From the NCBI RefSeq assembly GCF_000613185.1, contig NZ_CCBB010000002.1, positions 496,001 to 560,000 on the forward strand: a DNA stretch of 64,000 nucleotides, read 5' to 3'. The position numbers were made by a program, and so were the translations under genes. The notes beneath the pieces are model-generated. The model saw only the letters and a program-made list of their open reading frames with translations. It was not told the DNA's origin and did no database searches. The first letter of the stretch is position 1. The number at the start of each line of letters is the position of its first letter. Positions 1 to 6,716 of the stretch are shown here, piece by piece. Origin of the DNA: Mycolicibacterium cosmeticum. GTDB lineage: Bacteria > Actinomycetota > Actinomycetes > Mycobacteriales > Mycobacteriaceae.

Positions 1-449
1 TCAACGCCGACCAGCGCATCCTGGTGCGCGCGGGTTCCGGAATCGACTCCGCCGCAGCGCTTGCCGGGAAACGCGCCTGCGCGGTATCGGGCACCACGTC
101 GCTGGCTAAGCTCTACGGGCTGGACCCCAGGCCCATCGTGGTGGGGGCGCCCACGTGGACCGACTGCCTGGTGATGCTGCAACAGGGCCAGATCGACGCC
201 ATCGGCACCGACGGTGTGGTCCTGGCCGGCCTGGCCGCACAGGATCCCAACGTCCGGATCGTCGGCGGCAGTCTGGGTATCGAACCCTACGGTGTCGGGA
301 TCAAGAAGGAGAACGAGGATCTGGTCCGGTTCGTCAACGGTGTGCTCGAGCAGATCAGGGCCGACGGCACCTGGCAACGCCTGTACGACGCCAGCCTGCA
401 ACCCCTCGGGCCGTCGCCGGGTCCGCCTGCCGCGCGATATCAGGATTGA
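1..449 (+). CDS. GlnH-like amino-acid-binding protein, C-terminal part
   Basis: The frame is open from the window edge and stops with TGA at 447-449, so only about 148 C-terminal codons are visible and the true start lies outside. The sequence reads as the second lobe of a family-3 extracytoplasmic solute-binding protein: CAVSGTTS, TWTDCLVMLQQGQIDAIGTD and a late EPYGVGIKKEN segment match the GlnH/GluB type that binds glutamate, glutamine or aspartate. In mycobacteria GlnH works with the membrane protein GlnX to control the kinase PknG. Here a PknG-type kinase is two genes downstream, in line with a nutrient-sensing role. The next gene starts one base after this stop, so it is probably the upstream part of the same operon. 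Signal peptide and lipobox cannot be seen. Confidence 0.8.
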   Translation, partial: NADQRILVRAGSGIDSAAALAGKRACAVSGTTSLAKLYGLDPRPIVVGAPTWTDCLVMLQQGQIDAIGTDGVVLAGLAAQDPNVRIVGGSLGIEPYGVGIKKENEDLVRFVNGVLEQIRADGTWQRLYDASLQPLGPSPGPPAARYQD

Positions 450-450
450 G

Positions 451-1596
451 ATGACCGCACTGAGCACCGAAGCCATCGACCGCGAATTGGCCACGCGGGC
501 AGCCGAAGTCGCCGCGATGTCGGCGACGATGGTGGAGCTGGACGGCCATCCGGGGTTGTCGCACGTGCGGCTGTACCCACCCACCGGGGTCACCGCGCGA
601 CGCTGGACCGGGGTGCAGGCCTCGATTTCGCAGCTCTGGGAGGAACTGGGCCGGATGACCGCGATCCTGGACGGTGCCCGCGCGATCCGGGCCCGCCGGT
701 CCAAGCCGTCGGACGCCGACCGGGCCGAACTCACGCACTGGCTGCTGGAACGGCCGCTCGAGGTGTCCCGGGAACGGGTGCCGCTGGCCCGGCGGTCGCT
801 CACCGGATCCGGCGAGGCGATCGAGTACGTCGGCCTGGCCGATACCGCCGACCGGATGCGGGCCGCCTATCCGGCGGTGGCCGAATTCCTGGACGAGGTG
901 GATCGGATCAACACGCTGGTGGTGCAGGGTCTCGCCGCGGTGCAGGACAGGATCGCCGCTGTCGGCGCACCCGAGCCCGCCGGTGTCGCCGACCTGCTGG
1001 CGGTCGCGGCGACCGATCCGCTGTCGCTGTCGGCCGGTGCCATCGAGACGCGAGTGCGTGCCATCACCGTCGGTTTCGAGAAACAGGCGGCCGAGCTCGC
1101 CGTGCTCGCCGAGCTGCGCTCCAATTGGGTTGCTGCCGTGCAGGAGACATCGGGCGCGCTGGACAGGCTGCGTGCGTCGGTGGCGCGCGCCGGCCAGGTT
1201 CGGGATCGGGCCCGCCGGCACGTGCTGTGCGGACCGCTGCCCTCCCACCCGGACGCCGAACCGGGGCTGCGCGCCGAACTGGCCGCGCTGACCGCCGTCG
1301 ATCCTGCGGCACTGCGTGCCCTGCAGCGGCGCATCGACGAAGCCCAGCGCGTGCTCGACGAGGACGAACGTCTGGCCCAGGGGCTGCTGGACCGGCGCGC
1401 CGAACTCGCCGGCCGGCTGGAGGTCTACCAGACCAAGGCCGCCCGGCTGGGTCTGGGGGAGGACCGGGATCTGTTGGCCTCGGGCCGGATCGCGGCCGGT
1501 CTGCTGTCGCGGCGCCCGTGCGATCTGCGCGAGGTGACCCGGGCGATCTCCGATTTCCAGCAGATCCTCGCCCAGAAGCGGGAGGCGGCCAGATGA
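451..1596 (+). CDS. Predicted helical/coiled-coil protein of kinase operon, function unknown
   Basis: 381 residues starting [16 protein letters not shown]; the ATG at 451 follows the upstream stop by one base. I recognise no enzyme motif, membrane segment or signal peptide. The protein is rich in Ala, Arg, Glu and Leu with heptad-like helices throughout (for example [20 protein letters not shown] near residues 290-310), so it should be soluble and largely alpha-helical. It occupies the position between the GlnH-like binding protein and the PknG-type kinase, but it has none of the membrane helices of GlnX, so it is not that partner. Its stop overlaps the kinase ATG (ATGA), which implies translational coupling and a role as scaffold or adaptor. 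That role is inference from context only. Confidence 0.75.
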
Positions 1597-4792: not shown

Positions 4793-6084
4793 GTAATGCT
4801 GGACCGCAGGGCATTTCGGTTGACGTCGACCACAACCACTACATCGCCGAGGGTTCCGGGACGGTGGATGCCATCGTCAGCGTCACGGTGCCCGACGGTA
4901 TCGCCGTCGCCGACGCCACCGACCGGGTGGAGGCGATCATCATCGACTGCTCCACCTCGATGCGATCGCCGGCCACCAAATTCGACGAGGCCAAGCGGGC
5001 CACCGCGGCCGCCATCGGGGAATTGGTCGACGGCACCTACTTCACGATCATCGCCGGCACCGAACGCGCCACCTACGTCTACCCGCCGGACGGCTGGCCG
5101 GTCCCGGCGTCGGCGGCCACCCGGGCCGAGGCGTTACGGGCGGTGGACGCGTTGCGGCCCAAGGGGGGTACCGCGATGGGCACCTGGCTGGCGCATGTGC
5201 GCGGGGTGGTCGCCGCCCATCCCGGCGCGATCATCCACGCCATCCTGCTGACCGACGGCAAGAACGAGCACGAAACCCCGGAGGCGCTCGGCGAGCAGAT
5301 CGGTCTGGCCGAGGGCGAATTCACCTGCGACTGCCGCGGCGTGGGCACCGACTGGCAGGTCGACGAGCTGCGCGCGATCTCCTCGGCACTGCTGGGCACC
5401 GTCGACATCGTGGCCGACCCGGAGGATCTGGCCGACGATTTCGCCGCCATGATGCGCACCTCGATGAGCAAGTCGATCGCCGGGCTGACCCTGCGGTTGT
5501 GGACGCCGGCGGGTGCTCGGGTGGCCTTCGTCAAACAGGTGGCTCCCACCGTCGAGGACCTCACCGCGCGCCGGGCCGAGGCGGGCGCGCAGGTGGGGGA
5601 GTATCCGCTGGGCTCCTGGGGCGCCGAGGAACGCGACTACCACATCCAGGTGGAGGTCGAGCCCGCCGACGTGGGCCGAGAGAAACTCGCGGCGCGCGTG
5701 AGTGTCGTTGCCGGTGAACAGATTCTGGGGCAGGGACTGGTGAAGGCGGTGTGGACGGCCGATACCTCGCTGTCGGCGGTGATCAGCCGCCGGGTGGCGC
5801 ACTACACCGGTCAGGCCGAGCTGGCCCAGGCCGTGCAGGAGGGTCTGAGCGCGCGTAAGGAAGGCGACGTCAAGACCGCCACCGCCCGGCTGCAACGGGC
5901 CATGGACCTCGCGATGGAGTCCGGCAACTCCGGGACCGCGAAACTGCTGCGCGGCGTCGTCGAGGTGGACGAGCGCACCGGCACCGTGGCGCTGCGCCGC
6001 GAGGTGGCCGCGGCCGACGAGATGGCACTCGATGCGCGGTCGACCAAGACCGCACGGGTACGCAAGGAAGCGGGGGACAGCTGA
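4789..6084 (+). CDS. von Willebrand factor A (VWA) domain protein
   Basis: 431 residues. A VWA domain (about residues 40-220) carries an intact MIDAS metal site: DCSTS, the Thr of GGTAMG and the Asp of LLTDGKN. The following beta-rich part and a helical C-terminal tail (about 330-431, ending in ARVRKEAGDS) contain no motif I know. There is no signal peptide or transmembrane helix, so it should be cytosolic. VWA proteins bind partner proteins through the MIDAS; the partner here could be the zinc-ribbon proteins or the helical protein of the same operon (inference). The start overlaps the phosphatase stop by ATGA, and the stop overlaps the start of the FHA gene. Confidence 0.87.
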   Translation: MSNAGPQGISVDVDHNHYIAEGSGTVDAIVSVTVPDGIAVADATDRVEAIIIDCSTSMRSPATKFDEAKRATAAAIGELVDGTYFTIIAGTERATYVYPPDGWPVPASAATRAEALRAVDALRPKGGTAMGTWLAHVRGVVAAHPGAIIHAILLTDGKNEHETPEALGEQIGLAEGEFTCDCRGVGTDWQVDELRAISSALLGTVDIVADPEDLADDFAAMMRTSMSKSIAGLTLRLWTPAGARVAFVKQVAPTVEDLTARRAEAGAQVGEYPLGSWGAEERDYHIQVEVEPADVGREKLAARVSVVAGEQILGQGLVKAVWTADTSLSAVISRRVAHYTGQAELAQAVQEGLSARKEGDVKTATARLQRAMDLAMESGNSGTAKLLRGVVEVDERTGTVALRREVAAADEMALDARSTKTARVRKEAGDS

Positions 6085-6716
6085 TGCCGACCTGCGTCGA
6101 GGGACATACGTCGGCCACCGCCGACTTCTGCGATGTGTGCGGGTCACCGATCGGGGACCCGGTGCCACCGGCCCCGCCGCCGGCGCCGGCCCCTGCGGCG
6201 CAGTGCCCGGCGTGTGGGGCGCCGATCAGCGGCCGGTTCTGTGAGGCGTGCGGCCACGATTCGGCGCTGCCGGCACCCGACGCACCCCCGCCCGATGCCG
6301 CAGCGTCCGCGCCCGCGGTCACCTGGACCGCCGTCGTCGCCGCCGATCCGGAGTTCTATCAGCGGGTGCTGGCCCGCGAGGGCCCGGACACCGTCGACTT
6401 CCCGGACTATTTCCCGCAACGCCGCATCCCGCTGGACCAGGACGTCACCCTGATCGGCAGGCGCAACCCGGACAAGGGGGTCGACCCCCAGATCGACCTG
6501 GCCCTGCACCCGGTCGACCGCGGGGTGTCCACCCAACACGCCGTGCTGCGGTTGCGCGACGGCGGCCTGACCATCACCGACATCGGCTCCACCAACGGCA
6601 CCAGCCTCAACGGCAGCGACGACCGGCTGCCGCAGGGGCAGGAGATCGCGCTGGCCGACGGCGACCGCATCCACGTCGGGGCGTGGACCACCATCACCGT
6701 GGTGCGGACGACTTAG
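6084..6716 (+). CDS. Zinc-ribbon and FHA-domain phosphothreonine reader
   Basis: 210 residues. Two zinc ribbons lie in the first 60 residues (CVEGHTS ... CDVCG and CPACGAPI ... CEACG), a proline/alanine-rich linker follows, and an FHA domain occupies about 115-205. The FHA signature is complete: [12 protein letters not shown] (Ser and His of the binding loop) and [13 protein letters not shown] domains bind phosphothreonine, so this is the likely reader or substrate of the kinase in the operon, comparable in logic to GarA for PknG/PknB though different in architecture. TGATG overlap with the VWA gene. It is the last gene of the operon; pafA follows after 64 bases with its own promoter-like hexamer. 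Confidence 0.88.

Follow-up and report, generated by a model that had tools for sequence, protein, structure and literature searches.

A seven-gene operon around a PknG-type kinase in Mycolicibacterium cosmeticum and its probable relation to the glnX-glnH-pknG pathway

The known PknG pathway and the seven-gene operon

The bacterial Ser/Thr kinase PknG has been studied extensively. An operon of Mycolicibacterium cosmeticum, described here, bears on two questions about it, namely how its sensor is coupled to the kinase and where PknG came from. The glnX-glnH-pknG locus, known from mycobacteria and corynebacteria, is described in passages of four papers (PMC6069109, PMC8546545, PMC9769921, PMC2784874), the first of which, citing STRING, gives the arrangement as conserved in Actinomycetales; the second also names homologues from Ktedonobacter and Calothrix. 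GarA/OdhI, the substrate of this canonical pathway, has its gene at another place, and the C. glutamicum protein is dephosphorylated by Ppp, according to PMC9769921. The stretch that we analysed, hereafter the window, is 64,000 nucleotides long (contig NZ_CCBB010000002.1, positions 496,001 to 560,000). It opens inside an operon of seven genes, encoding GlnX (X), GlnH (H), a coiled-coil protein (C), a PknG-type kinase (K), a PP2C phosphatase (P), a VWA protein (V) and a zinc-ribbon FHA protein (F), in this order. No paper describing the whole operon was found in the literature searched, which omits most subscription journals.

The operon is probably a complete, self-contained PknG amino-acid-sensing pathway, from which the canonical glnX-glnH-pknG was pared down. 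Its gene set, order and coupling, the intact active sites, the GlnH pocket, the ancestry and the ArnB-like fold were all obtained by computation.

The glnX-like gene, whose product has four hydrophobic segments, lies upstream of the window (L003:10231-11493). The gene of the GlnH-like solute-binding lipoprotein (SBP_bac_3) starts at about L003:11490, some 511 bases before the window begins, and its C-terminal 148 aa are encoded at 1..449 (+ strand, coding 3-449). On the same strand follow C (451..1596, 381 aa), the kinase (1593..3794, 733 aa), the phosphatase (3791..4792, 333 aa), the VWA protein (4789..6084, 431 aa) and the FHA protein (6084..6716, 210 aa). From glnX to the FHA gene, the successive junctions are GTGA, a 1-nt gap (TGAG followed by ATG), ATGA three times, and TGATG, so that the seven signalling genes are tightly coupled. 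A preliminary description of the window had reported abutting or overlapping genes, which these junctions confirm. It had counted six; the genes that it listed stand, and glnX and most of glnH, upstream of position 1, bring the number to seven. Its supposition of an extracytoplasmic amino-acid sensor is supported by this GlnX/GlnH pair at the head of the operon. Supported, too, is its idea of a second PknG system in the genome: PknG_rubred was found in two places, the other of which is on a different contig and belongs to a canonical glnX-glnH-pknG locus (L004).

Between the two loci the kinases are 46%, the GlnH proteins 49% and the GlnX proteins 34% identical. They share the rubredoxin-kinase-TPR architecture, GlnH with its Asp/Glu pocket, and GlnX with four transmembrane segments, the operon GlnX (GlnX2) having four hydrophobic segments, as the canonical one does. 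Eight canonical loci (L004, L119-L122, L125-L127) gave no profile match for C, PP2C, VWA or FHA proteins in about 18-19 kb, and the canonical kinases lack the N-terminal zinc ribbon that the operon kinases carry.

Gene order and ancestry

The VWA protein had matches in 17 of 148 genomes searched, M. cosmeticum included. In six loci from other families (L013-L018), neighbouring kinase, PP2C and FHA genes encode proteins about 34-46% identical to those of the operon, where the short flanking stretch reaches. Named genomes were then scanned with an alignment of VWA proteins, 80 of the 583 confirmed loci being kept, and gene order was read by profiles in 98 loci (L003, L004, L023-L118). These were selected via the VWA protein, whose presence there is by construction, and they include duplicate assemblies (L028/L047, L029/L048, L026/L042). 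The exact order X-H-C-K-P-V-F was found in 62 of the 98. Ten more held all seven genes, but one match or another was divided, surplus or out of order, because stop-to-stop open reading frames overlap. Contig ends interrupted 17 others, one was the canonical control (L004), and eight were variants. Four of the variants have GlnX 3' of the FHA gene (L081, L083, L092, L109), with a GlnH match in L081 and L109 alone and no C match in L092; L037 and L038 gave no PP2C, FHA or GlnH match, L067 no kinase match and L087 no GlnH match.

A kinase-side survey, free of VWA selection, detected PknG_TPR in 18 of 296 genomes of the phylum and the VWA protein in ten, all of them among the 18. The eight genomes with PknG and no VWA match all belong to M. 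cosmeticum's own family; in the seven of them that were fetched, a glnX-glnH-pknG locus is always present, and the other four genes are absent in 18 kb. The recurrence of the operon is beyond chance, with neighbours shared across families, a widespread order and near-invariant zinc cysteines. One finding that would have refuted the preliminary description, by its own account, was a lack of any conserved co-occurrence of these genes in other genomes; kinase, phosphatase, VWA and FHA genes do co-occur there in a conserved way.

Of the 45 rows in the kinase tree, 30 were operon kinases, eight canonical PknG, two orphan PknG and five distant C-K-V kinases. Canonical and orphan PknG grouped together (100/100), had the operon kinases of Nocardia/Mycobacterium as their sister group (99/98) and were nested within the other operon kinases. 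The GlnX tree concurred: the sister group (100/99) of canonical GlnX (99/98) was the GlnX of the Nocardia/Mycobacterium operons. Forcing the 30 operon kinases to be monophyletic cost 35.6 log units (approximately unbiased (AU) test, p 0.00184), and 31.5 log units (p 0.0132) when four long outgroup rows were removed, p values that flatter somewhat, since the clade was named after the tree was seen. As a separate observation, the two genomes of genus g37 among the seven fetched (L123, L124) hold a further PknG with no adjoining glnX or glnH, forming a clade of its own.

The distant C-K-V loci (L132:5782-11179, L130:5978-11367, L038:8801-15157 and L037) encode a C-like protein, a PknG-type kinase with rubredoxin and a VWA protein, followed in L038 by a GlnX-like protein; none gave a PP2C or FHA profile match. 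Locus L128, of a distant family, holds all seven genes, with GlnX and GlnH on the opposite strand. These loci bear on the opposite history, in which the three-gene glnX-glnH-pknG would be ancestral and the larger operon assembled later by gene addition. The three-gene locus is the form described in print, and the operon is patchy among relatives. However, both trees and the AU tests place the small locus within the operon, four of the five outgroup loci already have kinase and VWA genes with a weak C-like match, the N-terminal kinase ribbon occurs in the outgroup too, and L128 has the complete set. We regard assembly by addition as improbable.

Judged from the trees, canonical glnX-glnH-pknG looks derived from the seven-gene operon and not the reverse, so that the operon is probably no side copy of PknG but the ancestral form and a richer relative of the known pathway. 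The simplest history is a seven-gene ancestor, a duplication in the Nocardia/Mycobacterium line and the loss of four genes from one copy. In four genomes of the same genus, whose sole PknG match has canonical strength, no VWA match was obtained anywhere, so that the VWA gene has been lost and not relocated; three of the four loci were fetched. Transfer of the operon between lineages is also possible.

Sensor, kinase and a putative ArnAB-like switch

Operon GlnH aligned with M. tuberculosis GlnH (6h2t) at 283 bits, pocket residues included. Of the pocket positions given in a part of PMC6069109, the six direct contacts (R147, T162, S164, R169, W232, D250) are all kept in M. cosmeticum, and K161, a water-mediated contact in M. 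tuberculosis, is Arg. Among 79 operon rows, R147 and R169 are kept in all, T162 in 76 and D250 in 75, and position 164 is Ser or Thr throughout. Protein C matched no Pfam or NCBIfam family; its AlphaFold2 model (predicted local distance difference test, pLDDT, 96.6) is nearly all-helical with one beta hairpin. It is present in every seven-gene-type locus not cut there, except L092, and adjoins the kinase in nearly all loci reaching that far. From this position, our guess is that C is an adaptor to the kinase.

The kinase is a single chain with an N-terminal ribbon, an S/T/R-rich linker, a rubredoxin, the kinase domain and the PknG TPR (PknG_TPR 318 bits, Pkinase 102, PknG_rubred 85, all above cut-off), and it aligned with PknG (2pzi) from residue 67 onward at 622 bits. 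The catalytic Asp, Lys, Asn and DxG are kept in all 86 operon rows. The ribbon cysteines (C3, C8, C17, C20; 1599..1652) are kept in 82-84 of these, in 3-4 of five outgroup rows and in none of ten canonical and orphan PknG; those of the rubredoxin (C100, C105, C124, C127) lie at 1890..1973. In some Nocardia and Actinoallomurus rows (L050, L053, L061, L075, L109) the N-terminal ribbon occurs in two or three tandem copies.

The phosphatase has a double zinc ribbon (DZR 27.7 bits, cut-off 27.3) of eight cysteines (3818..3985), each kept in 88 of 92 rows. Two PP2C domain models fell under their cut-offs (20.2 against 20.3, 19.8 against 24), as did the NCBIfam Stp1/PP2C model (84 bits, equivalog cut-off 230); the eight active-site positions tested are kept in all 92 rows. 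The FHA protein has its FHA domain at residues 123-199 (55.5 bits) and ribbon cysteines C4, C16 and C19, then C41, C44, C53 and C56 (6093..6251), each kept in 87-92 of 92 rows; H8 may supply the fourth ligand of the first ribbon. The Ser and His of the FHA domain are invariant in the 92 rows. Paired CXXC ribbons had been ascribed to all three proteins; to correct this, the kinase has one N-terminal ribbon and a rubredoxin whose first knuckle is CxxxxC, and the first ribbon of the FHA protein has three cysteines.

The VWA protein (VWA_3_C, 74 bits) keeps the metal ion-dependent adhesion site residues D53, S55, S57, T128 and D156 (4945..5256) in all 96 operon rows. Its fold, a VWA domain with a beta-sandwich and a C-terminal helical bundle, is the architecture of ArnB, and the VWA-family profile matched 8s05 (E 3e-8) over positions 38-212 only. 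The C-terminal tail STKTARV (6040..6060), in a region where the model has low pLDDT, is conserved, with S418 and T421 in all 96 rows and V424 in 90; T421 is a candidate FHA-docking phosphosite. The protein looks like an ArnB-type switch component, which we favour over the generic scaffold proposed earlier. PDB 4fx5, a VWA protein of Catenulispora acidiphila (caci_2163), is 50-52% identical to it over the full length and an apparent orthologue; the ArnB authors remarked on this structure, and the part of their paper available assigns no PknG operon to it.

In the ArnA-ArnB system of Sulfolobus the kinase is ArnC and the phosphatase PP2A, where the operon has a PP2C. The finger of ArnA is a single RanBP2-type one, whereas the FHA protein has zinc ribbons, with a DZR match below cut-off (23.7 bits); domain order and conserved cysteines agree. 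Unlike the archaeal system, the operon groups all its parts, a predicted membrane sensor among them, in one unit.

We infer all signalling steps of the pathway as follows. Outside the membrane, the lipoprotein GlnH would bind Asp, Glu or an amino acid related to them. GlnX would relay the state of GlnH to the inside, where C, in the cytosol, would be the adaptor to the kinase TPR. The kinase would phosphorylate its own S/T-rich linker, the VWA protein at its C-terminal end, or both. By analogy with ArnA-ArnB, the FHA protein, at first in loose contact with the VWA protein through zinc ribbons, may then bind it tightly by phosphothreonine, and the dedicated PP2C would reset the switch. Tentatively, and with a little less than even confidence, we propose that the operon is the ancestral actinobacterial PknG system, in which a transmembrane Asp/Glu sensor would drive a phospho-switch of VWA and zinc-FHA proteins, ArnAB-like (Sec23/24-core-like) and equipped with a phosphatase of its own. 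The mycobacterial locus would be a remnant that has lost the kinase ribbon and four genes (C, PP2C, VWA, FHA), and in Streptomyces-type lineages retaining the operon GarA would bear the same kind of ribbon mark. If the ancestry is true, it suggests that the familiar PknG pathway was cut down from a richer predecessor; the operon names candidates for missing PknG partners (a dedicated phosphatase, a pair of switch proteins and perhaps an adaptor), and the archaeal ArnAB nutrient switch would extend to bacteria.

Several points weigh against the pathway and the ancestry as proposed here, besides the choice of the tested clade after the fact. Deep in the kinase tree, some forks are weak or open (83/74), the outgroup is distant and long-branched, and the patchiness of the operon in Mycobacterium is compatible with a horizontal origin. 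In the 79 operon rows, 43 have Trp at position 232 of GlnH and 28 have Gln; because the residue is not Trp in 36, the ligand may differ in these. Structure comparison of C gave no recognised fold match. The VWA protein is 14% identical to ArnB, and fold likeness alone shows no function; relatives of this architecture act mostly outside multi-phosphorylation processes, as stated in a part of the ArnAB paper. The phosphothreonine-binding Arg of the FHA domain is kept in 66 of 92 rows and is Lys in 26.

GarA/OdhI, whose gene lies outside the operon, may serve as an additional substrate. A protein of this type was found in 16 of 16 genomes searched (ten above the family cut-off), and its sequence suggests that some lineages may have it as a shared substrate. 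In six genomes of the family of M. cosmeticum GarA has ETTS and no ribbon; the protein of M. cosmeticum (L133) has ETTS. Five proteins of Streptomyces type (L143-L147) carry, ahead of ETTS, an N-terminal zinc ribbon resembling those of the operon proteins; L138 has ERTS and no ribbon, and L148 a ribbon and no ETTS. It is conceivable, if unlikely, that the operon is a second input to the GarA/OdhI switch, its kinase mainly phosphorylating GarA and the VWA, FHA and C proteins being only assembly factors. The presence of GarA in all genomes tested fits this, as does the ribbon-bearing GarA of the five Streptomyces-type genomes (g41), where the operon kinase adjoins the VWA gene and no canonical-type PknG was matched. 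However, three operon-bearing genomes of two other families have a GarA with neither ETTS nor ribbon (L140-L142) and nevertheless keep the operon (L030, L032, L034), and VWA, FHA and PP2C genes are retained together with the kinase. A GarA input is compatible with the self-contained pathway that we prefer, the two not being mutually exclusive.

Other assignments and genomic setting

The TerY-P triad (TerY vWA, PP2C and kinase; passages of PMC11090510 and PMC4978471) resembles the operon in its three gene types and in a zinc ribbon on the kinase. Actinobacterial kinase-PP2C-vWA sets are described too and tied to other systems in a part of PMC7159879, and a trypsin-like domain is fused to the C-like protein in the two C-K-V relatives scanned (L132 and L038; C profile 23 and 118 bits). 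A stress or conflict (anti-phage) module of this kind would account for the trio of activities and its ribbons. Yet the operon kinase lacks the C-terminal ribbon of TerY-P kinases, its own being N-terminal and its C-terminus the PknG TPR; kinase type, TPR and GlnX/GlnH input are PknG features; and FHA, C, GlnX and GlnH are outside the trio as set out in PMC11090510. In the operon loci read, no effector gene recurred between the operon genes, the scan of outside neighbours being crude. We give a TerY-P role little probability, and retain the assignment to PknG signalling.

In M. cosmeticum the operon is enclosed by prcA and pafA: the 12 kb upstream of the window hold dop, prcB, prcA, glnX and glnH, and pafA lies downstream of the FHA gene. 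The same site is occupied in M. canariasense (L039), which could point to regulation of the Pup-proteasome system. Against it, a tblastn search with dop, prcB, prcA and pafA over L023-L118 gave a match in L039 alone, within the available flanks. Moreover, in three of six relatives fetched prcA lies near pafA (about 0.2, 0.35 and 1.8 kb) with no operon between, one of them having no VWA match and two the operon at another place; in the other three no prcA was found in the fetched stretch, which in one case was just 2.6 kb. We consider such a role very improbable indeed.

Past pafA, window positions 8146-12738 hold genes for a LacI-type regulator (- strand), an asparaginase, a polysaccharide deacetylase and an MFS transporter. 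An asparaginase gene is therefore found, perhaps by chance, close to the operon of a predicted Asp/Glu sensor.

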